The notes under the pieces were generated by a model that was not told the DNA's origin, did no database searches, and saw only the letters and a program-made list of their open reading frames with translations. Below, in pieces: positions 1,942 to 17,427 of a DNA stretch of 64,000 bases (the first letter of the stretch is position 1; each line of letters starts with the position of its first letter). Source of the DNA: Chryseobacterium sp. VAUSW3. Lineage in GTDB: Bacteria > Bacteroidota > Bacteroidia > Flavobacteriales > Weeksellaceae. Both the position numbers and the translations under genes were made by a program. The stretch spans positions 1 to 64,000 of the forward strand of contig NZ_NIUY01000002.1 of the NCBI RefSeq assembly GCF_002205795.1. The letters run 5' to 3'.

Positions 1942-3684
1942 ATGACTAAGAATCCACTACTTGAAGAGTTAAGAAAGCTACGTGAATCATCTAAATATGC
2001 AATAGCACAGGGTACTTACTCAAAATTAAATGGTTTTAAAAAATATCTTCATATCGAAAGAGCTGTAGAAAAAAAATTAAAATCAATTATTACCAAAGCA
2101 AGTCAAGCAGATCATGCACAACTATTGCTTGTTTGCGGAAATGTAGGTGACGGGAAGTCGCATATTCTTTCCTATCTACATGATGAATTAAGTGATGACA
2201 TCAGCCGCTTCGCGATACATAATGATGCTACGGAATCCCATAATCCTCATGAATCTTCGAATGAAACACTTTATAAGCTTTTAGGCGGTTTTAAAGATGA
2301 TCAACTGAAGGATTCGAAAGACAGGATCATCCTGGCAATTAATTTAGGAACTCTAAGTAAGTTCATAGAGGAATTTGGAGAAGAATTTAAAATCCTGAGA
2401 GATTATATTTCATCCCATAAAATACTTGATGTAGACTTAATACATGAAGATGAATATGACAGCGAAAGTCATTTTCATCATGTAAATTTTACAGACTACC
2501 ACCTATATTCCTTAACTGAAAATGGAGCAATTTCGCCAGTAATTTCTACGCTTCTACAAAAAATAGTTGCCAATGATGAAGAAAACTCCATTTACAAAGC
2601 TTATCTGGATTATAAACTTCTTAATTCGGAGCGCTCATTTTGTCCTATTCTGTACAATTATGAATTTTTATTCAGCGAGAATAACAGAAATATTATCTCA
2701 CAGCTTATTATTAAAGCCATTATTCAGAGCAAAGAAATTGTTTCGCTTCGTACCCTGCTCAATTTCGTTTATGACATTATAGTTCCAGTTGACCTTTCTG
2801 CAGTAAATGAAACAGATTATTTTAAAACTGTGGAAAAAATGAATGTTGCGGATTATCTAGCTAACCTGATTCCTAATTATTTATTTGAGCATCCTGAGCT
2901 GTCGAGTTTATTTGAAAAAATAGAAAATTTAGACCCTAAAAACCTGCGAGACGCCAGTACTGATGACGTTTTATTGACCCTAATAAATGCTGAACGTCCG
3001 CTTGAAATTTTTTCGAAATATGTAGACCAAAACTATTTATCAGAAATTGAAAAAAAGCTTGCTCAAAAGAAAGTTGGAAGTGCAGATCTTTCTGGTTTAT
3101 TTATGCGATTAAACTATTTCAGTAATTACTACAAGAACGAATACCTTAGAGATCCTGATTTTGAACAATATTTAATATGGCTATTTTATTATCACAATCA
3201 TCATCCGAAGTACATCAAAGAAATATATCACTTGGTTGAACATGCTGCGAGAAACTGGAATGGTGATCCAAAGGCAGGTGATAAAGTCATAATAAATGTT
3301 GGAAAAAAACAAACACAATATCGGGTATTTAAAGACTTTGAAGTTTTACCAGAGTTAAGTAAAAAGGATGTGAAGCAGGATAATGTTCTTCACAAATTTA
3401 CCCAGGAATTCACATTGACTTTCAGAATCAATAATGGTACTGAACTCGTTAAAATACACGTTGATTTCAGCCTGTTTAAAATATTAAAAATGATTTTAAA
3501 AGGATATCGACCTAATAAAAGAGACCATAACAACTTTGTATATTTTGTTGATGCCGTCAATATATTAATTAAACAGAACAACAGCAAGGCTGCACTGTAT
3601 ATTGATGAAGTGAATATCGGCAAACCGGTAGATTATAAATTTTCAAGAGACGCTTTTAGCGGCTACAAATTTCAAGTGGTATGA
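1942..3684 (+). CDS. dptF: DNA phosphorothioation-dependent restriction protein DptF
   Basis: DptF is one of three proteins (DptF, G, H) that attack DNA lacking phosphorothioate marks in hosts with the Dnd modification system. The 580-residue product has an N-terminal P-loop, GNVGDGKS at residues 66-73, preceded by hydrophobic LLLVC, which is typical of the DptF NTPase. The remainder is long, helical and highly charged, with no other recognisable domain. The length fits the family. Its stop overlaps the dptG start as ATGA, indicating translational coupling. Identification rests on the P-loop placement, the gene order with dptG and dptH, and the convergent dndCDE operon. Confidence 0.88.
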   Translation: MTKNPLLEELRKLRESSKYAIAQGTYSKLNGFKKYLHIERAVEKKLKSIITKASQADHAQLLLVCGNVGDGKSHILSYLHDELSDDISRFAIHNDATESHNPHESSNETLYKLLGGFKDDQLKDSKDRIILAINLGTLSKFIEEFGEEFKILRDYISSHKILDVDLIHEDEYDSESHFHHVNFTDYHLYSLTENGAISPVISTLLQKIVANDEENSIYKAYLDYKLLNSERSFCPILYNYEFLFSENNRNIISQLIIKAIIQSKEIVSLRTLLNFVYDIIVPVDLSAVNETDYFKTVEKMNVADYLANLIPNYLFEHPELSSLFEKIENLDPKNLRDASTDDVLLTLINAERPLEIFSKYVDQNYLSEIEKKLAQKKVGSADLSGLFMRLNYFSNYYKNEYLRDPDFEQYLIWLFYYHNHHPKYIKEIYHLVEHAARNWNGDPKAGDKVIINVGKKQTQYRVFKDFEVLPELSKKDVKQDNVLHKFTQEFTLTFRINNGTELVKIHVDFSLFKILKMILKGYRPNKRDHNNFVYFVDAVNILIKQNNSKAALYIDEVNIGKPVDYKFSRDAFSGYKFQVV

Positions 3685-5153
3685 GAGATATAAAGTTAAA
3701 TATAGAAGGACCAAACAGTCTTGAAAAAAATTATATTAAAAATAATAGCTTTAGTCATGTCACCGGTAATCAGATAAGGCTGTTGCCTTTTAAAACAAAC
3801 CCAAGCGGCGATAAATTTGGAGAAGATTTTAAATCTTTCCAAGGAATTGTGGGCGAATTGTTTAGAGTTTTAAATAATAAATCGCAAGTTGAAGTAGGAA
3901 AGAACCATGAAACTTTAAAAATTGAGCTTAAAGAAACTATTATAAAAAATGCAGTTGGTAATGTTGATACTGAGCATATAGATGAATTATCGCACATGCT
4001 TTCCAAGCTTTTCTTTGATGAAGACGATGGACTTATAAAATTCAATCTTAAGACGCTATCATATATGAATTTTATCAATTCCCATAAAGCAATCAAAGAT
4101 GTGGCAAGATATATCTTCGATTTGTTTATGAAAGAAGATTTTAGTGCTGAAGACTTAAAGGCAGATGACAGTGATGAGAATTTGTTAAATCAGTTAATGC
4201 TTCAAAGTTTACCAGAGCTCTCGACAGCGCAGACAATATCGGATGGTAGATCTTATCATAATTTATTTGCGGAGATCAAGCAACAATTTGTTAATGATTT
4301 TAAATTTTTAAAGAATAATGATTCTCTGCTCTTAAAACATTCCGAAGACTTCTTTAAATATTATTACTTTCACTACCTGAGCCAAGTAATGATTATTTTT
4401 AATGATTTTGGAAGCAGTTCTCCAAAAGTAAGGCCTATTAACTTTACAATGGATTGGGAAACCCTTTCGGAATCAAGACTTTCAAGTCATACTATTGGCT
4501 GGAAACATCTTAATAAATATTCACACTCTATTTTTGCCCATGTCAATACTTTGGAATTATTGAATTATGTGCAGGTGGATGGAATACCATTAAAAGATTA
4601 TCACAATATCAAAATGATTTATGATAGTTTGGACCTGATGGAGCAGCAGGAATTCAAAAGATGTTTAGATGAAGTCAGTAATTTTTACACAAAAAATATC
4701 ACGGTTTTTGACACTGGGAAGAATTGGGAACATTGCGAGTACTTATTAAACATGGATTTATATTTTACCAAACTTGAGGATGATATACTAAAAGCCGTTT
4801 ATGCACTATGGTTCAAAATAAGATACCAGTTCGAAAACTCACCCAGAAGCAAACCTTATAGCGATTATTCAAAATGGTACTCCCATTTTGTAAAGGTAAA
4901 TTATACAAAAAACAGAGGGCGATTGGGTCATACTACGGTGCTGTCACAAGAACTTTTACTATTTCTAACCCGCTTATGCATTGGAAATGAAGATAAAATC
5001 AGATTAAAATTACTGTGGGACAGATTAAGGGAGAGAGGAGTTCTGTTTGATGAAACCAGTAAACTGGAAATCATCAAACTATTTGAAAAAATAAATTTAA
5101 TTGAGAAAAAAAGTGATAGCGGAGATGCACAATACGTCAAGTCAACTATATAG
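3681..5153 (+). CDS. dptG: DNA phosphorothioation-dependent restriction protein DptG
   Basis: This is the middle gene of the restriction cluster. Its 490-residue product has no P-loop, signal peptide or membrane segment and is mainly charged and helical. DptG proteins are poorly characterised and thought to be structural partners of DptF and DptH. The ATG overlaps the dptF stop by four bases, and the 3' end overlaps dptH by 29 bases, so all three are probably made from one message. Assignment depends strongly on position between dptF and dptH; the sequence alone shows little motif evidence. Confidence 0.82.
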   Translation: MRDIKLNIEGPNSLEKNYIKNNSFSHVTGNQIRLLPFKTNPSGDKFGEDFKSFQGIVGELFRVLNNKSQVEVGKNHETLKIELKETIIKNAVGNVDTEHIDELSHMLSKLFFDEDDGLIKFNLKTLSYMNFINSHKAIKDVARYIFDLFMKEDFSAEDLKADDSDENLLNQLMLQSLPELSTAQTISDGRSYHNLFAEIKQQFVNDFKFLKNNDSLLLKHSEDFFKYYYFHYLSQVMIIFNDFGSSSPKVRPINFTMDWETLSESRLSSHTIGWKHLNKYSHSIFAHVNTLELLNYVQVDGIPLKDYHNIKMIYDSLDLMEQQEFKRCLDEVSNFYTKNITVFDTGKNWEHCEYLLNMDLYFTKLEDDILKAVYALWFKIRYQFENSPRSKPYSDYSKWYSHFVKVNYTKNRGRLGHTTVLSQELLLFLTRLCIGNEDKIRLKLLWDRLRERGVLFDETSKLEIIKLFEKINLIEKKSDSGDAQYVKSTI

Positions 5154-8100
5154 TTATGTTTCGAATCTAATTGTCGAATATTTCTCATTACAGCAAATCC
5201 TGTATGGAGATCGATTTAATCTTTATCTTGAAGACAAAGAAAATATTGAAATGCTTTATGAAGCATTGAAAACGATTCCGGAAACATCAGCTCACTCTTT
5301 TTCTTATACCCATCCGGAAGGTGGCGAAGTATATAATACTTTCTACCTTATAATTGGTAGCACTAAGTTAATCATTGCATCAAGCACCTTAGCATCTGAG
5401 GATTACCTCACTATGTTAAGAAATAAAGTTGCTGATCAGAATGATATTTTTTATGGTACCGCAATATTAATATTGTTTAGTGGTAAATTGGATAGTTTAT
5501 TGGGAGGTAGCGGGAGTTTGATTAAAGAGGGAATGCCTTTACACTATAGTAGATTTAAAGATAGAATAGAGCAAGATATTGAGAGGAGCACTTCATTGAA
5601 ATCTTACGAAAGAAATATCCTCAAAAAGGTTTTAGAGAGAAAGACCAAAAGTGTCGTAGAAGACAATAATTCAATATTTGATTATGAACAGGTAATCAAT
5701 GCATTGCAAAAAGGCAGTATTGAACAAGCAGACTATAGATATTTAGGTCTTTTTCCTCATCAAGAATTAAGTACCAAAACCGGAGATCTTACCACTGACC
5801 TCACAGGTAATTTCAATTTGTATGATAGGTTTGAAAATATCTTTACAAATGGCAATCCAGCTACAGACCTAGAACAAGATTTACCAAGTTCGGCATTAGC
5901 AAAAATTACGAAGGAAGATTGGCATGATATCGATTATGCCCAGCTTGTAAAATGGATGGATAAGGAGAAAGAAAAGGCACCACCTGTATTCCAATCTATC
6001 GAAGGTGAGAATTTACTACAAACGCTTTGGTACAAAACGGATGGCGATTCTGTATCGAAGAAAAGAAATGTAAATCTCATCGTTTTTAATCCATCACTAG
6101 AACTTCCTTTTAAAGTAAAATTAAAATATGATCAATTCATCAGGAATGAAGGCATCAACATAAAACAAGGTTCCGACAAAATAAATGCTGTAGCCAGCGG
6201 ATACAATATCATTATTGAATTTAAAGAATTTGATTCCGACAAGCTCTTCAGTTTAATTGAATATCGCGATTCTGAAACAGATAAAAGGTATTTAATCAAA
6301 GTACTTCATCTGCCGTTCGATTCGAATGTCTTATCACAATTCGAGGGCAATTTTCATTTAAATGTCCAGAACTCTAAATCGTACCTTCAAATTAAGGAGA
6401 GTGAAGCATTAATTTTCAATCCTATTGCGGAAACCATTGTTGAAGAAATATTAGCTATTGATTCACATTTTAAATTGGGAGAGGATCAACAACTCATTGT
6501 AAACTATGATTATTCACTTGCCCAAGAGGATTTGATTCATTTTAAGATTGAGCTGTTCGATATTTTAGTACCCATCGCCATAAAAACTGATTTTGAAATG
6601 CCCAAACCAATTTCGGGGCTTGATGTGTGGAAAGAAAAAAGAATTCACCAACGTAATTTTAAATATTTAAAAGAAGGATCCATCATTAAATTATTATTTA
6701 AAAATAATGAAAAAACAGTAAGTGGAGAATTTAGAAACAATTTAATACAGGAAGATCAGATTATAAATTCTGAAGGATATTCATGGTTTTTAGGAAACGA
6801 CAATTCAATTTCTAATCGAGAGTTGAAATTGAATACTGATATAAAAAATGCATTCAATAACTTAAGGAATTATTATAAAGATAAAAAAACACAACCTAGT
6901 TTAGTATTTTTAGATACCGAATTGAAGGAACTGTCTCTTGCCTATGTGAACTGCTTTATTGATCAACTTGAAAAATTTGAAGAAAACAAACCACTCACCT
7001 ACGAACAGAAAAACCTGTTATGGTTAGGCGTTGTTAAAGAGCAAAATGGAGAAGAGAAAATTAAGTTTAGCCCTTTGCATCCGCTTAATGTAGCTTACCA
7101 ACTTGAATTGGATAATCATTTAAAAGATGAAGAACTTTATAATGCGGTATTAAAAAGATTAAGCCCCTATAATTTAATCCCTTATTTAGAAGGTAAGCCG
7201 AATGAAATATACATTCCGATTGAATCAAGTCATTCTCCAGAGTGGTTATATTATACGGTCTATTTGAATTCTAAGCAAGCGGTACCAAAAAGTTTTGTTT
7301 CAAATCTGGTAACTGATAAAATCAAGGATTTTGCAATTAATTTCGAATCTCTCTTTCATCAGTCAAAAAAAGCGCCTATCAAAATTAATGTTATTAATTT
7401 GGGAGACTGTAAGGAAGTTGTAGAAGGCATTTTTGAATTTTACCGGAAATTTCTTAACGCCAATTTAAGTAAACGTATGACTGATTTACTTCCCATTGAA
7501 GTAAATATCTACGGTTCGGAAAAATTAGTAAATAAATTTGAAGAACTTACCTTTTACGAGAAAGTTGACGACGTTGAAAAACACTTGGAACTGGATCTGA
7601 AGACAAAAAATTTTGAAAGAGAAGATTTATTAAACGCTTTTCTAGAACGTGTCAAATTTTACACTAAAAAGCATCCGGAGAAAACTGAGAGATACGAATA
7701 TGCTCATATTACGTTCTACCAGTTTGATGTTACAAAGACCGAAATATCGTATGACGATATGAGCTTAGTAAAAACCGGCCTTTCCTTTAATGGTTTGATG
7801 GCTGATGTAACTTCCACCCCCACAGTACAAAATTACAGAACTGGTTTTGGAACAAAAGATTTGCCTGAACAAAGAAATGATCTCACTACCCTATCTTGTC
7901 TATATAATTCCTTCGTGCGTGTTGCCACCAACGGAGATCCTTATGAAAGAAATAAGGCTATTTGTACTACTATTAATTATGAAATAAAGGAACAATTAGC
8001 AAAGCTATATTCAGATTCTCAATGGGTAACTTATATTGACCCTAAAGTTGACCTCGATTTTTTTAAGGAGAATAAAGATTTGGTTATTATTCATTATAGT

Positions 8101-10317
8101 GACCAATACAACAACTCTAATGGCTATGACGCAATAACTGTTAGCCGTAAAACCAGCCAGTACGAGTTTGTTGTTAAAGAGTTTCTTGAGAAACACAATG
8201 TGAAGTTTGATCCAAGTACCGACACTATTAACATTATAAATTTCTTCAATGCTATTAATGGGGACTGGTTATTAAAATTAATCCGTCAGCACAATCAATT
8301 TCCGAGAGAGAAATTAAGTCTTTTATCTGGAATCAAAACGTCATTAACCTTCCTTTATCATCCAGACATCATTTGGATCCCCATATCGTTGGAGGAAATA
8401 TTAAGGGTTTCTGGAAATGCGGGGTTGAACATGGGTGACGGTTTGTTTTCTACCAAAAATCTAGGGGCCATAGGTTCCTTCAGCGATGATTTATTATTTA
8501 TAGGGCTTGAGAATCTTGATGGAGCGTTATTGATGCATCTGTACCCGGTAGAATTAAAAATTGGTGGACTAGGTATTGTAAAAAAAGGAATCGATCAGGG
8601 AAAGCGCACCGCTGAATTACTCAGGGAACACTTACATAAGGATGGTTTTTTAAGTGACTTCTACAAAAACTTCTTTGCTAAAATTGCCCTTACTAATGCG
8701 GAAAAGATGAAACTTTTCCATGTATGGGATACCCAAAACTGGAATGTCATCACCGAGGATTACCGAAAAGATTTATTAAATAATAATTTCACTATCAGCA
8801 ACCGATTAAATAAATCACTGGGCAGCTTCGGACTCATCTATTTTGGAAGTGATGTGTATAAAAGAGAACTTCAGATCAAGGAAGGTTTTATGCGTGTTAA
8901 TTTGCAGGAAACAGATGGTTATAACTTTCTGGTGAAATCCATTGACGATCTCATACATCTATTCCATGAAACCGAGACTACTATTGAAAAAAGCAAACTA
9001 TTAATCAATACCTTTTCAACGGCCACCACAGAGTTTTTTATACCGGGTGAAAATGTTTTTCAGGAGCCTCATCAGGAGGAAAAAGAGACTGAAATTGAGG
9101 GGCTAACAAATGCGGATCAAGTTACTGCCACTACAGAGCGAGATACCACTGCTGTTCAAAATACGGGCGAAGGCATTGAAATAGAATTTGGAACTGATTT
9201 AAACAATTTTAAAACCGTTTTCTGGGAACCCAACAACACCAACAAAGTGATGCATACCAACACAGGTATTATTGGCACAATGGGCACCGGAAAAACACAA
9301 TTTACCAAATCGCTCATCACCCAACTTAATGCGCACGCCAACAAAAATATTGGAGATGAAAAACTTGGTATTTTGGTATTTGACTATAAGGGAGATTACA
9401 TTAAGGAAGACTTTGTAAATAAAACCAATGCAAAGGTTTTACACCCGTATCACTTGCCATATAATCCATTAGCTTTAGATGCCACGCAGAACTCAAAACC
9501 AATGTTGCCACTTCACACGGCTAACGATCTTAAGGAAACCATTGCAAATGCTTTCAATTTAGGAAACGTTCAAAAACAGCGGTTGAGGGATGTTATCGTT
9601 GAAGCATATGAAGACAAAGGCATCACAAAGGCAAATAAAGATTCCTGGACACGAACACCACCAACATTAGGAGATGTGTGCGATATTTATTTGAGCAGCG
9701 AAAAAAACTCACAAGACAGTTTGTACGCTGCTATTTCCAATCTTTCCGAATTCGAGATTTTCGAACCTGATGCGGCCAAAGCACAGTCATTGTATTCATT
9801 GATTGAAGGTGTTGTGGTGATTAATTTATCCGGTTATGATGAGTCGATTCAGAATCTGATTGTCGCTATTACCTTAGATGCATTCTATTCTCAAATGCAA
9901 AGACATGGTCACAGCAAGATCAATGGTAGTACGCGCGAGATTAAGAAAATGATTTTGGTAGATGAAGCCGACAACTTCCTAAGTAAAAACTTCCACTCTA
10001 TCCGCAAAATATTAAAGGAAGGAAGAGAATTTGGTGTCGGAACGATTCTTTCAACGCAATTCTTGAATCATTTTGCGACAGGTGAAAATGAGTACTCTAA
10101 TTACATTCTTACGTGGGTTATTCATCGTGTGAATGAAATTAAAATGAAGGAAGTTGAGTCCTTATTTTCACTGGATAACAAATATGAAAAAGAAAGTTTA
10201 ATAAAAACGATCAAGGGGTTAGAGAAACACCAAAGTATTGTAAACTTGGCAGGTTCTGCACCGATTTTGATAAAGGACAAGGCTTTTTGGGAGCTTCTCA
10301 ATCAAAATAGAATATAA
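5125..10317 (+). CDS. dptH: DNA phosphorothioation-dependent restriction protein DptH (HerA/FtsK-type ATPase)
   Basis: At 1730 residues this is the large motor subunit expected of DptH. A long N-terminal part without recognised domains precedes a C-terminal HerA/FtsK-like ATPase. Walker A is GTMGTGKT at residues 1384-1391. Walker B is ILVDEAD with the Asp at 1613. An acidic, Thr-rich linker lies just before the ATPase. The ATG at 5125, preceded by GGAG, is preferred to a TTG at 5101 and overlaps dptG by 29 bases. The protein is expected to translocate on DNA and, with DptF and DptG, damage unmodified DNA. No nuclease motif was recognised in it, so cleavage may need a partner. Confidence 0.88.
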   Translation: MHNTSSQLYSYVSNLIVEYFSLQQILYGDRFNLYLEDKENIEMLYEALKTIPETSAHSFSYTHPEGGEVYNTFYLIIGSTKLIIASSTLASEDYLTMLRNKVADQNDIFYGTAILILFSGKLDSLLGGSGSLIKEGMPLHYSRFKDRIEQDIERSTSLKSYERNILKKVLERKTKSVVEDNNSIFDYEQVINALQKGSIEQADYRYLGLFPHQELSTKTGDLTTDLTGNFNLYDRFENIFTNGNPATDLEQDLPSSALAKITKEDWHDIDYAQLVKWMDKEKEKAPPVFQSIEGENLLQTLWYKTDGDSVSKKRNVNLIVFNPSLELPFKVKLKYDQFIRNEGINIKQGSDKINAVASGYNIIIEFKEFDSDKLFSLIEYRDSETDKRYLIKVLHLPFDSNVLSQFEGNFHLNVQNSKSYLQIKESEALIFNPIAETIVEEILAIDSHFKLGEDQQLIVNYDYSLAQEDLIHFKIELFDILVPIAIKTDFEMPKPISGLDVWKEKRIHQRNFKYLKEGSIIKLLFKNNEKTVSGEFRNNLIQEDQIINSEGYSWFLGNDNSISNRELKLNTDIKNAFNNLRNYYKDKKTQPSLVFLDTELKELSLAYVNCFIDQLEKFEENKPLTYEQKNLLWLGVVKEQNGEEKIKFSPLHPLNVAYQLELDNHLKDEELYNAVLKRLSPYNLIPYLEGKPNEIYIPIESSHSPEWLYYTVYLNSKQAVPKSFVSNLVTDKIKDFAINFESLFHQSKKAPIKINVINLGDCKEVVEGIFEFYRKFLNANLSKRMTDLLPIEVNIYGSEKLVNKFEELTFYEKVDDVEKHLELDLKTKNFEREDLLNAFLERVKFYTKKHPEKTERYEYAHITFYQFDVTKTEISYDDMSLVKTGLSFNGLMADVTSTPTVQNYRTGFGTKDLPEQRNDLTTLSCLYNSFVRVATNGDPYERNKAICTTINYEIKEQLAKLYSDSQWVTYIDPKVDLDFFKENKDLVIIHYSDQYNNSNGYDAITVSRKTSQYEFVVKEFLEKHNVKFDPSTDTINIINFFNAINGDWLLKLIRQHNQFPREKLSLLSGIKTSLTFLYHPDIIWIPISLEEILRVSGNAGLNMGDGLFSTKNLGAIGSFSDDLLFIGLENLDGALLMHLYPVELKIGGLGIVKKGIDQGKRTAELLREHLHKDGFLSDFYKNFFAKIALTNAEKMKLFHVWDTQNWNVITEDYRKDLLNNNFTISNRLNKSLGSFGLIYFGSDVYKRELQIKEGFMRVNLQETDGYNFLVKSIDDLIHLFHETETTIEKSKLLINTFSTATTEFFIPGENVFQEPHQEEKETEIEGLTNADQVTATTERDTTAVQNTGEGIEIEFGTDLNNFKTVFWEPNNTNKVMHTNTGIIGTMGTGKTQFTKSLITQLNAHANKNIGDEKLGILVFDYKGDYIKEDFVNKTNAKVLHPYHLPYNPLALDATQNSKPMLPLHTANDLKETIANAFNLGNVQKQRLRDVIVEAYEDKGITKANKDSWTRTPPTLGDVCDIYLSSEKNSQDSLYAAISNLSEFEIFEPDAAKAQSLYSLIEGVVVINLSGYDESIQNLIVAITLDAFYSQMQRHGHSKINGSTREIKKMILVDEADNFLSKNFHSIRKILKEGREFGVGTILSTQFLNHFATGENEYSNYILTWVIHRVNEIKMKEVESLFSLDNKYEKESLIKTIKGLEKHQSIVNLAGSAPILIKDKAFWELLNQNRI

Positions 10318-10361: not shown

Positions 10362-11309
10362 ATGACTATCAAAGAATCAATATTAAAGAGTTTGGAAGAC
10401 ATAAATAATCTTGCAAATGCTGCTGAAGTTTACAATCACATTGTAACAAAAGGGTATTATGAATTTGGCGCAAAAAGCCCTGCTGCATTAGTATCAGCAA
10501 TGTTAGGCGAGTTTATTAAGAATGGTGATTCGCGAATTAAAAGAACTAAGGTCTCCGGACAAACCTATAAGTATTATCTTACTAAAATAGAAAAGACAGT
10601 CTTAATCGATCAGTTAGATTTGGATGTTGATAAAATAAAGCCAAAAAAAAATGAATACCAAGAACGGGATTTACATAAACTGTTGAGCAGTTTTTTAAAG
10701 AACACAGATATTTATTCTAAAACTATTTTTCATGAACAATCATTAAACTCCAAAGATAATCATCAAAAGTGGATTCATCCAGACGTTGTAGGGATACAAT
10801 TTCTGAATCTTCATTCAAAAATTAATCAAACTTTTTTAAAAGCTATCAATAAACTTGACATTTTTAAAATATCCTCATACGAAATAAAAAGAGAAATAAA
10901 TTCAGATTACGAACTAAAGAAAACATTTTTTCAAGCAGTTTCAAATTCTAGTTGGGCTAATTATGGATATCTTGTAGCATTTGAAATTAGTGATAGTTTG
11001 AATGAGGAAATGGAAAGATTAAATCAATCGTTCGGAATTGGTATAATTGAATTGAAAGCCAATCCATATGAAAGTAAAATTTTGTTTCCTGCAAAATATA
11101 AAGATCTTGATTTCAAAACAATTGATAAGTTATGCAAAATCAATAAAGATTTTGAAAAATTTATAGAGCAGGTTGAAAAATTGATGACAGCAAGCGATAA
11201 ATATTACAAATCTACAGAAAAAGAGCTTGATGAATTTTGCGATAGCTATTTTTTGAATGATACTGAAATTGATGAGTATTGTAAAGAAAAGTATATTCCT
11301 GTAAACTAA
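10362..11309 (+). CDS. HARE-HTH plus PD-(D/E)xK nuclease-like protein (HrgA/COG2958 type)
   Basis: The 315-residue product starts with a winged-helix HARE-HTH-like module (about residues 2-75: TIKESILKSLEDI..AAEVYNHIVTKGY..P.ALVSAML). A probable PD-(D/E)xK core follows, with P140-D141 in HPDVVG, E174-x-K176 in YEIKREI, and a conserved-looking FFQAVSNSSWANYGYLV helix-strand. HARE-HTH domains were described from chromatin and restriction proteins and are proposed to sense modified DNA. The gene follows dptH by 44 bases on the same strand and ends at a perfect terminator. It may supply nuclease activity to the Dpt machinery or act alone on marked or unmarked DNA; both are inference. Confidence 0.7.
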   Translation: MTIKESILKSLEDINNLANAAEVYNHIVTKGYYEFGAKSPAALVSAMLGEFIKNGDSRIKRTKVSGQTYKYYLTKIEKTVLIDQLDLDVDKIKPKKNEYQERDLHKLLSSFLKNTDIYSKTIFHEQSLNSKDNHQKWIHPDVVGIQFLNLHSKINQTFLKAINKLDIFKISSYEIKREINSDYELKKTFFQAVSNSSWANYGYLVAFEISDSLNEEMERLNQSFGIGIIELKANPYESKILFPAKYKDLDFKTIDKLCKINKDFEKFIEQVEKLMTASDKYYKSTEKELDEFCDSYFLNDTEIDEYCKEKYIPVN

Positions 11310-11370: not shown

Positions 11371-12381
11371 TTAAATTTCAACTTCGTCAAAATCAATACA
11401 TTTTTCAACTATTTTGAATGATTCTATATCTTTAATAATATTTATTTTAGGAATCAAGACATCAAGAATCCTTTTTCTCTCAAAAAGTAATCTACCATTA
11501 GTATTATCTGATTGAAATAAGGTGTCAGAGTATCTTATTAATCCATATGGTATAAACATGGCATGAATAGGTTTTAATCTATGGAAATCTAAATATGAAT
11601 CCTCATAATCTCCAGTGTCACCTCTTTTGTTTACCCAATTTTTACCACATGCACATTGGCCTAAAATAACTAACATATTTGATATATTATCCCTAAAATT
11701 TTGCCAGCCAATTATATCTAATCCTTTTTCTTTATTTGCAATTTTTGTAATTTGTTCAATTTCAGTTATTCTACTTTTAACTTTTAGTTTTGTTGATAAT
11801 GCTTTAATTTTATTTATGGTGTTTCCTTTATATTCAGAATTTTGACCGAACTCTTCTACCGTCATTCCAGGAAAGAAACTTTCTAAAGTCAATTTGGAAA
11901 GTGTTTCAAATTCAGTGGTCAAGACATTTTCTAACTTGCTGAAATTATTCAAATTAGAAGAAATTAACAGATATAAGTAGAGTTTATTAACATCGTTTAA
12001 ACTTTCTTTTAGCTTTATTTTCAACCCATCAATCTCAAAAGGATAAGAATCTTCATAAATCAAATATCTTTCTTCAATTACTCCGAAGATTTCTTTAAAT
12101 TTAGATACCCACTTATCATTTTTTTCAGATACAGAACTTGAAGTCATATCTTCAATCGAATGTGTTTCCTCAAAATTTATACTAAATTCAAAATCTTTAT
12201 AAAATGTTATTGCATCTTGTAATGTTAAAAAAGAATTTTTGTCCCACAACAATGCTCTTAACTCTACAAAATCAGCATGCAAATGTTCCAAATGCCAAGG
12301 ATGGTCTTTTTTAGGATCTGGTGCTTTAATGGTGAAACCATCAAATTGTTCTGATATTTTATCTTCCAAACTCATCGCCAT
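11371..12381 (-). CDS. Unrecognised 336-residue protein at the end of the dnd operon
   Basis: I do not recognise the family. The N-terminus has a His-rich helix (HPWHLEHLHADFVELRALLW, residues 27-46). The middle is helical and charged. Near residues 241-245 there is a C-x-C-G segment, GQCACGKNWVNKRGD, followed by a basic/aromatic patch (LDFHRLKPIHAMFIPYGLIR). The Cys and His clusters could bind zinc; no catalytic motif is evident. It overlaps the ParB-like gene by 23 bases and is the last gene of the dndC-D-E-parB operon, so it is probably co-translated with it. The pair may form a regulator-effector unit. Start is ATG at 12381, with a second ATG six bases on. Confidence 0.75.
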   Translation of the reverse strand: MAMSLEDKISEQFDGFTIKAPDPKKDHPWHLEHLHADFVELRALLWDKNSFLTLQDAITFYKDFEFSINFEETHSIEDMTSSSVSEKNDKWVSKFKEIFGVIEERYLIYEDSYPFEIDGLKIKLKESLNDVNKLYLYLLISSNLNNFSKLENVLTTEFETLSKLTLESFFPGMTVEEFGQNSEYKGNTINKIKALSTKLKVKSRITEIEQITKIANKEKGLDIIGWQNFRDNISNMLVILGQCACGKNWVNKRGDTGDYEDSYLDFHRLKPIHAMFIPYGLIRYSDTLFQSDNTNGRLLFERKRILDVLIPKINIIKDIESFKIVEKCIDFDEVEI

Positions 12382-13501
12382 CGAATTCGTTTTTGATTAA
12401 TTCATCTTTAACTGATTTAATAGTTCTAGCTACTTTTATTATTTCTCTTAAATCATCATCAAGTGAAGGATAAAATTCATCTATTTTATAAATTAAACTA
12501 TTTGCTTTTTTTAGACTCATCAATGATTCTGCGATGGAATTGGTAAATAAATTATCTTCTTCTCCTGTATAGGTGTGTGCTTCCTCTAATGTTGCATTAT
12601 TTACTATAAACTCTTTTTTGGCTTTTTCATTACCCAAAATGGAATTTAACATATTCAAATCTTGGCTTTTACCTTTTAATCTAGTGCTTTTTAAATACTT
12701 ATCACTACCATCAATTGGTTCGAAAAGCCATGATGTCCAGTTTTTTAAAGATTCCAAATTAATTTTTTCAATTGGATCGTTTAAGTCTAAATCAACATTT
12801 AGGTAATTCGAAATATTTGACCTAGACAGACTATCAGCTATATATGAAAAATAAAGTCCTTCTTCATCAAGTCCCTTTATTTTAAAAAAAGCATTATCTC
12901 TTATTAATGTATATATTTTGTGTCCTGTCAATAATCTTTTTACATAATCTTTTTTACTACCTATTATTTTTCTTAATTCATTACTGGCTTGATCTAGAGA
13001 TAATTCAGAGTAATTTTTTTCTCTTAAATACGAAACGTATTTCGCTTTTTGTCTCAAATTCCAAGGTTGTATTCCAGTAACGTGTCTATATCCTAAATAG
13101 TCATGAATATTTTCGTCTTTTTCAAATACCATACATGGCAAAAAGGAAATTGGTAAAGTTATATTAATACTAGTTCTAATTTTATCAACTAGACTTCGCT
13201 GTACTGTTGCTAATTCTGGATTATTTAATAATTTAACAGCAGTAAGCCTACGATTTCCCTCAATTACTTTATACTTATCATCACCAATAGGAACAACTAA
13301 TAATTGTTCACCAGGGAAAAAGCCTTTTTGACCAATTGCCTGCATTAGTTCTAATGTTGACTCCTCAATTAACATATGACTTATAATCTCACTTTCATCT
13401 TTACCTTGGATGTAATCAGGTAATCGTGGATTTTCATTATCAAGAATCAGATTTTCAACAGGTATTTTACCATTGAAATATGGGTATTCTAATTGATCCA
13501 T
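12359..13501 (-). CDS. ParB/Srx-fold protein in the dnd operon
   Basis: The N-terminal third (about residues 12-110) matches a ParB/Srx nuclease-like domain: VENLILDNENPRLPDY (Asn-Pro-Arg at 24-26), then KVIEGNRRLTAVKLLNN (E81-G-N-R-R85), the equivalent of the ParB Box II ExxRR motif. A helical part follows, including LRQKAKYVSYLREKNYSE, as in the DNA-binding region of ParB-type proteins. It is encoded 11 bases after dndE and overlaps the last operon gene. Canonical Dnd operons carry DndB, a regulator with a related fold and a DGQHR motif; no such motif is seen here. Whether this protein replaces DndB, or acts as a CTPase or nuclease, is unknown. Confidence 0.75.
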   Translation of the reverse strand: MDQLEYPYFNGKIPVENLILDNENPRLPDYIQGKDESEIISHMLIEESTLELMQAIGQKGFFPGEQLLVVPIGDDKYKVIEGNRRLTAVKLLNNPELATVQRSLVDKIRTSINITLPISFLPCMVFEKDENIHDYLGYRHVTGIQPWNLRQKAKYVSYLREKNYSELSLDQASNELRKIIGSKKDYVKRLLTGHKIYTLIRDNAFFKIKGLDEEGLYFSYIADSLSRSNISNYLNVDLDLNDPIEKINLESLKNWTSWLFEPIDGSDKYLKSTRLKGKSQDLNMLNSILGNEKAKKEFIVNNATLEEAHTYTGEEDNLFTNSIAESLMSLKKANSLIYKIDEFYPSLDDDLREIIKVARTIKSVKDELIKNEFDGDEFGR

Positions 13502-13512
13502 TTAATTTGTTT

Positions 13513-13908
13513 TTAAAATATTTTGTTAAAACCAATATCTATTTTTTCAGTTAAAAAATCAAATCCATCAATATTTGAACGCTCATTAACTTCATAATTC
13601 AAAAGTTGCAAACCATCGTCAACATGCATTTTAATATATCTGCCAATATCTTTATCAGTCTTATATAGCCCATAATGTACGCAAAGCAAGCCTAAATAGA
13701 TATCGTAATAATCACCAAACAGAACAGATTTGGAATATTCTTTTCCACCTGCATCTTGGATATCGTTTAGATTTAGTTTTTTATCTTGAGATAAGGAGTA
13801 TGTAAAAGCAATTCTTGCAATGACATTCTCTGTTCCCAATCCCAGTTTACGAGTCAACAATGAAACAATTTCTTTATTTTCTTTGCTCGTTTTAATTTGC
13901 GTAAACAT
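13513..13908 (-). CDS. dndE: DNA sulfur modification protein DndE
   Basis: DndE is a small basic protein of the phosphorothioate modification complex and is reported to bind nicked DNA. The 131-residue product has the expected size and the conserved-looking segments GKEYSKSVLFGDY (residues 55-67) and YIKMHVDDGLQLL. It overlaps the end of dndD by 17 bases, as in other dnd operons, and precedes the ParB-like gene by 11 bases. No domain beyond DndE is present. Confidence 0.88.
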   Translation of the reverse strand: MFTQIKTSKENKEIVSLLTRKLGLGTENVIARIAFTYSLSQDKKLNLNDIQDAGGKEYSKSVLFGDYYDIYLGLLCVHYGLYKTDKDIGRYIKMHVDDGLQLLNYEVNERSNIDGFDFLTEKIDIGFNKIF

Positions 13909-15991
13909 CTTGCTCCTGTTTTAAGTGAGTAAATAACTGATCAACCGGGTACGGTGTAAAGCTAGAGCCACCATTATAATTTTCAATGACAAAAACCTTA
14001 TTTACATTTGGTTTTAAATATTCATATTCCAATTCAGACAGTTCTTTTTCCAAAAGAGGGAATAGAACAACCTGCTCTGAAATGGCAGGATAGAATTCTT
14101 TGATAATATTTTTAGAATGGTATTTATCAAACTTCTGTAGAGGGCTGTCTATAAAGACCGGGAATTTAATACCTGATACATCCACCAAAGCTTTCAGTAA
14201 AGCAGTAGCATACAGTTGCTGTTCCCCTTTGGATAATGAATCTTTATCAATGATCTCGTCATTTTTGCCTAAGAGATCAATATCCATCACATCATCTACA
14301 ACATTTACCCGGACATTATAAATAAAGTCGTCTTTGTGCATGATCTTTTTAAGACCCAACATAATGGATTTTTGCAAAGCAAACTTCTTATCCTCTTTAA
14401 TTTTCTGAATAATTGTATTGATTTTTACCAAAAGTTTTTCTGTTACCTCAAATTTCTTCTGATCAGTTTTAACCAGTTTGAAATTCTTTTCAAACTCAGA
14501 CAACACTTTTCTCATTGAAGATAATCGGGTACTTAATCCTTCATATTCCTCCATAAGTTTTCCTTTGCTAAGGGTTAAAGCATTAATTTTTTCGTCTGTT
14601 TCTATTTTTTCCTCCCGTAATTTTTGGGCCAAAGGATTATCTTTCCTTGCTTCAGCCTGCCTGATCTGCTGGTACACTTTCGAGGCATAAATTCTGTTGT
14701 TTTTTTCCTCCTGAACTACTGCATTAAACTGGCTGGAAAATGCACCTTTTATATTATTGTAAACAGCTTCAAAATTGCGGTATTGTTCTGCGGTATAGTC
14801 TAAGAGCACTTTCTCGGTTTTGCCCGGAATACTGCCAGATTTTTTTTCTGATATGATCTGTTCTAGTGCCTTTTCTACCTGAGATTGTGCTGTATGGTCT
14901 AAATTGAGCGATTCTAATTTCTTTAATAATAGGGAAGAAAATGAAGTTAATTCTGCAAAAAGCATCGTCTTATCTGCTGAATTATTATTGGCAGCTTGTT
15001 CAAAAACAAGCTGATTTTTTAACTGCAATAGTTTTTTACCTGCGATCACTAAAGGAGCAATGTCCATTAGTTTTTTCAGCTTGCTTTTTATTTCGGTAGA
15101 TTCATGCTTTAAATGATCTCTCTCGGACTTCATTTTTTGAAGTTCCTCCAGGGTAATTCCATTCCCTTCACGAATTAATTTTTCCTGAATGGCATCACTA
15201 TTTAATTTATGATTGGAAATTTCCCGGTCAAGATTAGCTTGTCGATCTTGATTGATTTCCAATAAACCACTTAATTCGGCTTCGGCTTCTGTGAGCTCAA
15301 ATAACTTGGTCTGTTGTACGGGAGAAGCACCACTTCTTCTCAATTTAGAAAGCAATGTTTCTAGATTCTTGCGCAAATCTTCGTATTTCTTAATTCCCAA
15401 AACCTCTGAATATGCTTTGCTTAAATTTCTTAATTCAGATTTTGATTTTGCTTCTGCAAGTGAAACAATTTTTTCAGCATCAAAAAAGAAAAATTTAGCA
15501 ATTTCACGGGGCAGTATGAAGTCATTAATGAAAACCTCAAAACCAACTTCTTTTGTTAATTCATTTTCTAAACCATCAATGGTAATTTTTAAATCTTCCG
15601 TATCTGTTCTTAAATCATACGATCTTTTGATGACCACTGACTTACAGGGAATGGATGGGATGAGTATATCTTTTAATTCAATTTCTACTGAAAAAACTGG
15701 ATTTGTTTTAACATGATTTTCATAGTCTGTTCTTACTTCTCTGTTTAGAAGTGTTTTGATAAACTTATCGTATCCACCGGCGTTCTTGATGTCTTTTTTA
15801 TATTTATCCTCAACCTCGTTCATCATTTTCCCATAAAATACCCAGATCAAAGAAGTCAAAAAAGTAGTCTTTCCAAAACCATTCTTACCAGCGATAATGC
15901 TGATGTTTTTGGAAGGATTGGGGGAAAATATGATCTCGTTTTCTCCTTTATAAATTCTGAAATTCTGAAATTTAATTTTATTTATTTTCAT
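13892..15991 (-). CDS. dndD: DNA sulfur modification protein DndD (SMC/Rad50-like ATPase)
   Basis: This 699-residue ATPase belongs to the phosphorothioate modification complex. It starts with an ABC-type head: Walker A GKNGFGKT at residues 35-42. A long coiled coil rich in Glu, Lys and Leu (about 215-530) follows, then a C-terminal half-site with the ABC signature LSKGEQQLYATALLKAL and Walker B FPVFIDSPL. This is the SMC/Rad50 layout of DndD. Its start overlaps the dndC stop by four bases and its end overlaps dndE, so dndC, D and E are translationally coupled. It probably supplies ATP-driven DNA opening or nicking for sulfur insertion. Confidence 0.92.
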   Translation of the reverse strand: MKINKIKFQNFRIYKGENEIIFSPNPSKNISIIAGKNGFGKTTFLTSLIWVFYGKMMNEVEDKYKKDIKNAGGYDKFIKTLLNREVRTDYENHVKTNPVFSVEIELKDILIPSIPCKSVVIKRSYDLRTDTEDLKITIDGLENELTKEVGFEVFINDFILPREIAKFFFFDAEKIVSLAEAKSKSELRNLSKAYSEVLGIKKYEDLRKNLETLLSKLRRSGASPVQQTKLFELTEAEAELSGLLEINQDRQANLDREISNHKLNSDAIQEKLIREGNGITLEELQKMKSERDHLKHESTEIKSKLKKLMDIAPLVIAGKKLLQLKNQLVFEQAANNNSADKTMLFAELTSFSSLLLKKLESLNLDHTAQSQVEKALEQIISEKKSGSIPGKTEKVLLDYTAEQYRNFEAVYNNIKGAFSSQFNAVVQEEKNNRIYASKVYQQIRQAEARKDNPLAQKLREEKIETDEKINALTLSKGKLMEEYEGLSTRLSSMRKVLSEFEKNFKLVKTDQKKFEVTEKLLVKINTIIQKIKEDKKFALQKSIMLGLKKIMHKDDFIYNVRVNVVDDVMDIDLLGKNDEIIDKDSLSKGEQQLYATALLKALVDVSGIKFPVFIDSPLQKFDKYHSKNIIKEFYPAISEQVVLFPLLEKELSELEYEYLKPNVNKVFVIENYNGGSSFTPYPVDQLFTHLKQEQDVYAN

Positions 15992-17349
15992 AACTCCTGT
16001 TCATTTACAAAACTTTCAATTCTTTTCTCCACATCGTTATGAAGCCCATATTTTGAGATCATCAATGTTTTGGTTTCCTGTAAAGATATCAGGTTGTCAA
16101 TGAGGTGATAATATCCTGGCTCTTCGTCGCACACATCTCTTAATATTCTTCGTTCGGTGTCATCCAGGGATTTAATGTTATTTGTGCTGATATCTTTATT
16201 ATAAATTTCTTTGTATAACTCACCAACTGTATGGTCGAAATAACCATCCCGATTCCAGGTTACCTGAATTGCAATTAATTCCTGATTGTTTATTAACGTA
16301 ATATGGGGGCGCTCTTTTTGGATCTCCTTTTGAACTAATAAAAGATCTTTTAATATTTGATAACGGTATCCAACGGTGTAGTTTCCGTTAAAAGTGCCAT
16401 CATCTCTAACGGCCTCCTGACCATTTCTTCTTGTATCTGAACGATTTTCTGAGATATTTCTACCTTCGACCAATCTGTTTCTGAAAGCAAGCAAAGGTTC
16501 CATCCAATTTTGGCCGTTGTTTACTAATGATGACATTGATTTATCATTCTTCACCACTGTACAAGTCCAACATCCAAACCGGCTCTGCCCGCATGAATTA
16601 TGTTCTTTATTCACGACTACTGTCGGACATTCATAATCGTCAGCACTAGCATCAGCATAAATTTTGAAAAGAATGGAATTATCAAATCCCCATGGAGATG
16701 GTACCGCATTAATGATGTACCAGATTTCATCAACAATCATTTCTTTTATCGGAGCATAAACATACGTATTAACTGTAGTTTGATGTTTCGATAATCTGCT
16801 ACCAGTAACTTCGTGTTTTCTGATAGAGCGTTCTCGGGTTGCACTTTCATCGTAACGGGTGCCCAATAGAACTATAGCTTCCCCTTTTTCATCAACCTGC
16901 TCCAGCAAAAAGCTTGACGTAGGCTTAATCTTCAGTTTATCAGTACACCATCTAAAAGCATTATTTGGGACTGGATATCCCTTTCCTATAACGTTTGTCC
17001 AAAAAGTTTCTTCAAGCTTAGGAGTTGTTTTTTGAACAAATATTGGCAAATCCTGCTCCCTCGCTGCTTCTGAAATTTTGGCCAAAACATCTTCTACATA
17101 ATTTGAAATAATTGGATTTTCCACCATTGTATCATTACAAACTACGTAGACCTTTCTCCTTAATTGATAAGGAAAAGGCATTTCCTCTCTAATTCTTTGT
17201 AGGGCAATCCACACGAGCATTAGCAAAACGGTAGAATCTTTTCCTCCGCTGAAACCAATAATCCAAGGTCTATCTGAGTTGTCAGCATAAGCATACTGAT
17301 CTATGATCTCAGCTATGATTCCTTCAACTTTTTTATTTTTTATAATCAT
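15988..17349 (-). CDS. dndC: DNA phosphorothioation sulfurtransferase DndC
   Basis: DndC is a PAPS-reductase-like enzyme that activates DNA with ATP and transfers sulfur to the backbone. The 453-residue product carries the PP-loop SGGKDST (residues 34-40). Cysteines suited to an iron-sulfur cluster appear in CTDKLKIKP, ECPTVV and CGQSRFGCWTC. The ATG at 17349 is chosen; a TTG at 17400 would add 17 residues before the usual family start. It is the first gene of the modification operon. No dndA cysteine desulfurase is nearby, so a chromosomal IscS-type enzyme presumably provides sulfur, as known for other Dnd systems. Confidence 0.92.
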   Translation of the reverse strand: MIIKNKKVEGIIAEIIDQYAYADNSDRPWIIGFSGGKDSTVLLMLVWIALQRIREEMPFPYQLRRKVYVVCNDTMVENPIISNYVEDVLAKISEAAREQDLPIFVQKTTPKLEETFWTNVIGKGYPVPNNAFRWCTDKLKIKPTSSFLLEQVDEKGEAIVLLGTRYDESATRERSIRKHEVTGSRLSKHQTTVNTYVYAPIKEMIVDEIWYIINAVPSPWGFDNSILFKIYADASADDYECPTVVVNKEHNSCGQSRFGCWTCTVVKNDKSMSSLVNNGQNWMEPLLAFRNRLVEGRNISENRSDTRRNGQEAVRDDGTFNGNYTVGYRYQILKDLLLVQKEIQKERPHITLINNQELIAIQVTWNRDGYFDHTVGELYKEIYNKDISTNNIKSLDDTERRILRDVCDEEPGYYHLIDNLISLQETKTLMISKYGLHNDVEKRIESFVNEQEL

Positions 17350-17427
17350 TATTTCTTTATGGGATTTAGCAAATACTAAACTTTTGTCCGCTAATTGCAA
17401 ATTTAGTATTAAAATTTATAATATTTA

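Follow-up and report, generated by a model that had tools for sequence, protein, structure and literature searches.

In the Salmonella IscS-DndBCDE-DndI system, a ParB-superfamily domain of DndI senses phosphorothioate (PT) and holds the nuclease off self DNA, and DndI restricts DNA that lacks PT (portions of PMC11662687). We analyzed a 64,000-nucleotide stretch of Chryseobacterium sp. VAUSW3 (contig NZ_NIUY01000002.1, positions 1 to 64,000; hereafter the window), in which a minus-strand operon reads dndC-dndD-dndE followed by genes for a 380-residue ParB-like protein and a 336-residue protein, P336. Like DndI, this pair couples a predicted ParB-superfamily nucleoside triphosphatase (NTPase) to a predicted nuclease beside a PT modification operon. 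However, DndI is a single protein with DUF262 and HNH domains, whereas the pair consists of two, a KorB/Noc-like ParB and a putative PD-(D/E)XK nuclease; dndI is also co-transcribed with dndFGH, whereas the pair sits in the dndCDE operon. We propose that the pair is probably a two-subunit restriction module that was re-coupled from methylation to phosphorothioation.

Other described systems resemble the pair in part. SspE and GmrSD-type DUF262-HNH proteins join a nucleoside triphosphate (NTP)-binding ParB-like sensor to a DNA nuclease, and a mark on the DNA controls their activity, but neither protein of the pair matched GmrSD_N (PF03235) or GmrSD_C (PF07510) at E <= 1, which places them outside the DndI/SspE/GmrSD group; L059, a different dnd locus, does encode a protein with DUF262 (GmrSD_N) and HNH (GmrSD_C). 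In type II restriction-modification (R-M) systems with a C5 methyltransferase, the methyltransferase and putative restriction genes adjoin, often on phage DNA, as in relatives of the pair, but here the restriction half would be a ParB plus a nuclease without a family name and the mark in the window is PT. Nuclease genes that directly follow dnd modification genes (HARE-REase, SF2-HKD, SRA-HNH) have been proposed as alternative restriction arms by Rakesh, Aravind and Krishnan (2024, PMC10853773); in its main-text parts, supplements aside, that paper speaks of 'multiple REase families' without mentioning a gene pair made up of a ParB and a nuclease. The ParB-like protein also matches components of two PADLOC systems, PD-lambda-5 (PD-Lambda-5_A, profile positions 6-169 of 466) and PDC-M38 (PDC-M38A, 62-356 of 715), but covers only part of those models. 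For PD-Lambda-5 this is the N-terminal part of A, with no match to B at E <= 1 among the matches listed for the ParB-like protein, which argues against membership; P336 and six relatives matched no PADLOC model at E <= 0.001. Open PubMed Central papers, in the portions available, contained no description of a restriction unit made of paired ParB and PD-(D/E)XK genes and no match for 'PDC-M38'; subscription papers, preprints, supplements and REBASE lie outside that scope.

Gene order and predicted folds of the ParB-P336 pair

The operon comprises the following open reading frames (ORFs):

11371..12381, minus strand: P336, 336-aa ORF, open; predicted PD-(D/E)XK nuclease subunit
12359..13501, minus strand: ParB-like subunit, 380-aa ORF, open
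13513..13908, minus strand: dndE, stand-alone, 131 aa (PF08870, E 3.3e-27, above the Pfam cut-off and under NCBIfam's)
13892..15991, minus strand: dndD (TIGR03185, 264.8 bits, above cut-off)
15988..17400, minus strand: dndC, TTG-started ORF (TIGR03183, 420 bits, above cut-off)

ORF coordinates and the matches of dndC, dndD and dndE to Pfam, NCBIfam or PADLOC models confirmed the gene order that an earlier note on this DNA had proposed, together with its 11-base gap between dndE and the ParB gene (13502-13512) and the 23-base overlap between the ParB and P336 ORFs as listed (12359-12381). Since many homologues of P336 start at its third residue (MSLE...) and the profile match begins at 12375, the true start may be 12375, which would leave an overlap of 17 bases. 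The true start of dndC is likely the ATG near 17349, because DNA homology to a related locus, L062, ends at 17344 (blastn).

The ParB-like protein has a ParB/Srx NTP-binding fold at about residues 5-140, with EGNRR at 81-85, followed by a KorB/Noc-like middle domain (about 140-292) and a helical C-terminus. Its matches to KorB, Noc and ParB CTPase domains and its G-x-R-R phosphate box identify it as a ParB-CTPase-fold protein, in agreement with the fold earlier assigned from a GNRRL motif, which is present as EGNRRL. A search of solved structures with the ParB sequence profile returned only a ParB (E 0.0016). Which NTP (C, A or G) a ParB-fold protein uses is not reliably readable from sequence (PMC12704722, section 9).

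P336 matched no Pfam or NCBIfam family, and its sequence profile retrieved only two designed repeat proteins from the solved structures, which we took as chance. The AlphaFold2 model of P336 (predicted local distance difference test 92.2, predicted template modelling score 0.91) shows a PD-(D/E)XK restriction-endonuclease fold, with MspJI as the best structural match and AspBHI, titled modification-dependent, within the first ten (Foldseek/VIA). The core fold covers approximately residues 134-322 and carries the motif residues E159, D222, Q242, K252 and R302 (336-aa numbering), and on this model P336 would belong to the PD-(D/E)XK superfamily. D222 and Q242 are invariant in 56/56 relatives. 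In the active-site pattern D...(E/Q)xK, the position two after the Q is A, G or T in 54 relatives and K in 2, and K252, 10 residues past Q242, is K in 54 of the 56. By its modelled fold P336 is most likely a PD-(D/E)XK nuclease, and it may be catalytic. PHROG 3984 ('unknown function') matches P336 with E 2.5e-33. The earlier note had suggested either an effector or a zinc-dependent adaptor for this protein with its His-rich and C-x-C-G segments. Both segments exist (a His-rich N-terminal stretch and CACG), but C245 is C in just 25/56 relatives and the CxC is not conserved; this and the predicted restriction-endonuclease fold disfavor the adaptor, and the idea of an effector is supported.

Methyltransferase linkage and phylogeny of the pair

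The ParB and P336 genes form one unit that is not confined to dnd operons. A ParB profile alone fetched 57 viral loci, and P336 lies directly downstream in 56 of them; the 57th (L109) ends after ParB. In the other loci scanned the pair was present in 21 of 23, with both misses (L031, L079) at contig edges. Viral contigs scanned with the P336 profile and with the P336 of L021 gave no match; the ParB profile did match. No ParB-P336 fusion was seen, as judged only indirectly from ORF lengths. Rows left out of the counts were L004 (same region as L005), L031, L079, L109 and three unusable weak P336 matches, namely G258 (internal stops), contig 15 of G207 (a 110-aa fragment, no ParB in L033) and G080 (E 5.8e-4 in a 962-aa frame, marginal and taken as chance).

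A C5 methyltransferase lies within 1.4 kb of 54 of the 56 viral pairs, the other two loci stopping at the contig end, and accompanies 34/34 viral ParB clusters; elsewhere in the same viral loci (287,554 bases) we found no C5 gene. The viral C5 and D12 labels derive from custom profiles and not from Pfam itself; these profiles were seeded with 6 and 5 genes, each confirmed by Pfam, and then iterated. Both genes also occur in 18 more loci outside dnd operons, from genomes, plasmids and named phages. A C5 or D12 (N6) methyltransferase lies within 2.1 kb in 14 of these, and Pfam confirms the enzyme in 13; the L077 enzyme was called by the custom profile only. In the remaining four, the methyltransferase lies at 4.8 kb (L076), at about 5.9 kb (L022, annotated) or was not found within the fetched DNA (L020, L075). 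For the seven usable genomes of a phylum sample (395 genomes drawn evenly; the seven being those outside dnd with a readable pair), 7 methyltransferase neighbors were observed and 0.085 were expected by chance from the number of methyltransferase matches in these genomes. Three further genomes of a class sample (G501, G530, G719) have a methyltransferase alongside the pair. The window's whole genome contains no C5 or D12 DNA methyltransferase, these two being the only classes sought.

As in R-M systems, a modification enzyme accompanies the predicted nuclease genes: in the window DndCDE shares their operon, and most relatives have a methyltransferase nearby. The earlier note had named frequent occurrence of the pair outside dnd loci, without any link, as a finding that would refute its reading; the pair is indeed common elsewhere, but there it is strongly tied to a different neighbor, a DNA methyltransferase. 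Because the relatives usually stand beside DNA-methylating enzymes, the pair looks like a portable restriction module now re-coupled to another chemical self-mark.

In the P2-like phage vB_EcoM-12474III, the portal gene and replication gene A flank the pair together with a C5 methyltransferase gene that is convergent to it. The pair is carried by 36 of 5,426 complete E. coli genomes, and one E. coli annotation lists a 'ParB N-terminal domain-containing protein', a 'hypothetical protein' and a 'DNA cytosine methyltransferase'. At L028:11654-12322 a NotI-type restriction enzyme gene stands between the pair and a D12 methyltransferase, and the methyltransferase there may therefore serve NotI. A second, longer ParB-family gene (495 aa) lies convergent to the pair at L027:10420-11907, without a P336 partner.

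For phylogeny, the 56 viral pairs were reduced to 34 at 80% ParB identity, L032 was omitted (P336 in two ORFs), and a midpoint-rooted ParB tree of 56 proteins was built with the 'quick' method. The dnd-linked ParBs from the window, Prevotellaceae (L001), Dysgonomonas (L002) and Gillisia (L003) group in a single clade (support 100). This clade is nested in a 40-row set (support 99) whose other members are 33 C5-linked pairs and 3 that are unassigned; a single clade (support 93) likewise unites the six D12-linked ParBs, and L005, L021 and L023 are on long branches. From this midpoint-rooted quick tree we infer that transfer probably ran from methylation to phosphorothioation. Identity to the window ParB is lower in C5-linked than in dnd-linked rows for each of its three parts; as all three show the same pattern, nothing clear emerged for a faster change of the middle domain on the move to dnd. 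Of 198 close relatives of P336 found, 120 were listed and 110 used in trees. In a P336 FastTree these 110, which come without genomic context, and the four dnd-linked rows form one clade that contains no other row (support 100), and 104 of them fall inside the smallest set holding all four dnd-linked rows (support 87). Given this shared clade, most of the 110 are predicted to be dnd-linked.

The dndE end and the surrounding island

Among the loci read, the window's dndCDE is closest to L062 (84-88% protein identity), which lacks the pair. DNA identity between the two is 78% from 17344 to 13536, stopping about seven codons before the dndE stop (blastn). After the end of homology L062 carries a gene with an HSDR_N-type domain; the same place holds a GHKL-ATPase gene plus a weak GIY-YIG match in L061 and an SF2 helicase gene with a PLD-like match in L057. 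With L058, these differing genes make the place after dndE look like a slot for exchangeable accessory sets, an arrangement that fits the nuclease diversity after dnd genes described by Rakesh et al. (PMC10853773, section 17). In L058 (14475-16494), a dndE-HerA gene is followed by a DndB-like DGQxR gene overlapping a gene for a 319-aa protein of no recognized kind, a parallel two-gene layout in the same slot; the 319-aa protein gave no match as a P336 relative.

Convergent to the dnd operon is a complete DptFGH module (1942-10317, plus strand), absent from the earlier note, and a further gene whose stop is 61 bases from that of P336:

1942..3684, plus strand: dptF/dndF, at the head of the PT-dependent restriction module (TIGR03238, 225 bits, above cut-off)
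3681..5153, plus strand: dptG/dndG (TIGR03236, 143 bits, above cut-off)
5101..10317, plus strand: dptH/dndH, HerA-type ATPase (TIGR03237, 685 bits, above cut-off; DUF87)
10362..11309, plus strand: HARE-HTH-like protein (weak HARE-HTH, E 0.13; N-terminal similarity to L001:6368-7177, E 3.1e-5)

The C-terminal 'HPDVVGI...SYEIKREI' of the HARE-HTH-like protein looks PD-ExK-like by eye, and the protein is possibly a further restriction nuclease of the island. In L001 (6368-7177) and L002 (11018-11836) a HARE-HTH-like gene directly follows P336, and the L002 copy combines HARE-HTH with an Mrr_cat nuclease. DndE is fused to a DptH/HerA-type ATPase at L001:2638-4254, L002:7308-8900 and L003:7316-8896 (L003 by PADLOC models); the window has a short DndE and separate DptFGH. 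Aminotran_5 gave nine matches genome-wide, among which a cysteine desulfurase may be included.

Alternative explanations and a proposed mechanism

With DptFGH already present as the restriction arm of the dnd system, the pair could be a back-up suicide effector, triggered by phage infection or by DptFGH failure and destroying DNA whatever its modification. Back-up roles have been proposed for some dnd-linked nucleases (Rakesh et al. 2024, PMC10853773, section 17), and the L020 and L075 pairs, with no methyltransferase in the fetched DNA, would suit such a role. We nevertheless regard it as unlikely, as the C5 methyltransferase on or close to nearly all viral pairs is an R-M layout and the middle domain of the ParB subunit is of KorB/Noc-like type.

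The absence of DndB bears on a second alternative, which follows the regulatory idea of the earlier note and in which the ParB protein replaces DndB in the control of dnd transcription or modification level and P336 acts as an adaptor. The note had seen no dndB in the window and had allowed for one just outside it, but neither TIGR03233 nor PF14072 gave a match anywhere in the 2.63-Mb genome (99.96% complete). Ten genomes of the phylum sample have DndC above the curated cut-off (13 at E <= 1e-40). TIGR03233 finds DndB in one of these above cut-off and in one more at E <= 1e-5, and PF14072 finds a DndB-type gene in 6, leaving 4 without, the window's genome included; absence of DndB as the norm thus holds for strict TIGR03233 only. 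The pair accompanies dndCDE without dndB in four loci (the window, L001, L002 and L003) and, in the even phylum sample, in 1 of the 10 DndC genomes, the window's own. PF14072 found no DndB in the genomes of L001-L003, giving DndB in 0/4 genomes with a dnd-linked pair vs 6/9 other DndC genomes (Fisher two-sided p 0.07), a weak hint that pair and DndB exclude each other. Such exclusion is expected from the regulator idea, and equally from any model with one or the other accessory set per operon; DndB-like genes elsewhere may belong to other effector sets, and exclusion need not mean replacement. The ParB-like protein shares a ParB fold with DndB, as DndB is said to have one, but neither it nor P336 matched TIGR03233 or PF14072 at E <= 1, and it has GNRR where DndB-like proteins carry DGQxR. 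Three other DndC genomes (G355, G219, G215) lack both DndB and a dnd-linked pair. Together with the methyltransferases beside non-dnd relatives, the nuclease fold of P336 and its unconserved CxC, these observations make the regulator quite improbable.

MspJI is methylation-dependent. Equally improbable, in our view, is a modification-dependent (type IV-like) nuclease attacking invader DNA that bears a foreign mark, as MspJI and AspBHI do: the fold matches of P336 point that way, as does GmrSD, modification-dependent (parts of PMC4619093) and with a ParB-like part (parts of PMC12839542), but the likeness to MspJI and AspBHI is confined to the catalytic fold, Pfam SRA/SAD matched neither protein of the pair nor any of 32 P336 relatives, and an adjoining methyltransferase would make the enzyme self-destructive unless specificities differ.

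We therefore return to the two-subunit restriction module as the probable explanation. Two genomes of the class sample weigh against it and do not fit the linkage: in G592 the methyltransferase is at 4.8 kb, and in G492 the nearest C5 gene on the same contig is about 12 kb away. By analogy with the R-M layout and with DndI, the ParB-like protein would be the DNA- and NTP-binding partner in a complex with P336, loading on DNA and finding sites, and would use NTP as a switch, permitting or withholding cleavage according to how the DNA is modified; P336 would then cut where the mark is missing. In the relatives, self DNA would be protected by C5-cytosine or N6-adenine methyltransferases. In the dnd lineage, DndCDE would write the protecting phosphorothioate, the ParB-like protein would read it, and the pair would cut DNA without it. 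The pair and DptFGH may thus be two cutting arms with one common mark, working in parallel. Two suggestions of the earlier note, that the ParB-like protein might sense marked DNA and that the pair is an additional module built into phosphorothioation, accord with this explanation; its idea of ParB taking over from DndB has become less likely, the co-absence of DndB being what still speaks for it.

More tentatively, a two-protein restriction enzyme of this kind could be licensed by its ParB-type subunit, an NTP switch that may act as a sliding clamp, and could be re-tuned to the self-mark of its neighbors: C5-methylcytosine in phage and many bacterial loci, N6-methyladenine in a separate clade and backbone sulfur here. 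If true, restriction specificity would evolve by swapping the writer while the reader-cutter stays. On the present reading, two protein families of phages and bacteria that are filed under 'unknown function' (PHROG 3694, 3984) or 'hypothetical protein' (named entries among the 120 listed) receive a proposed function, and restriction modules would gain a ParB-dependent class in which the same cutting module goes with three different self-marks. Both the way in which a restriction enzyme comes to respect a new mark and the way in which phosphorothioation systems gain cutting arms at the dndE end become open to direct testing.
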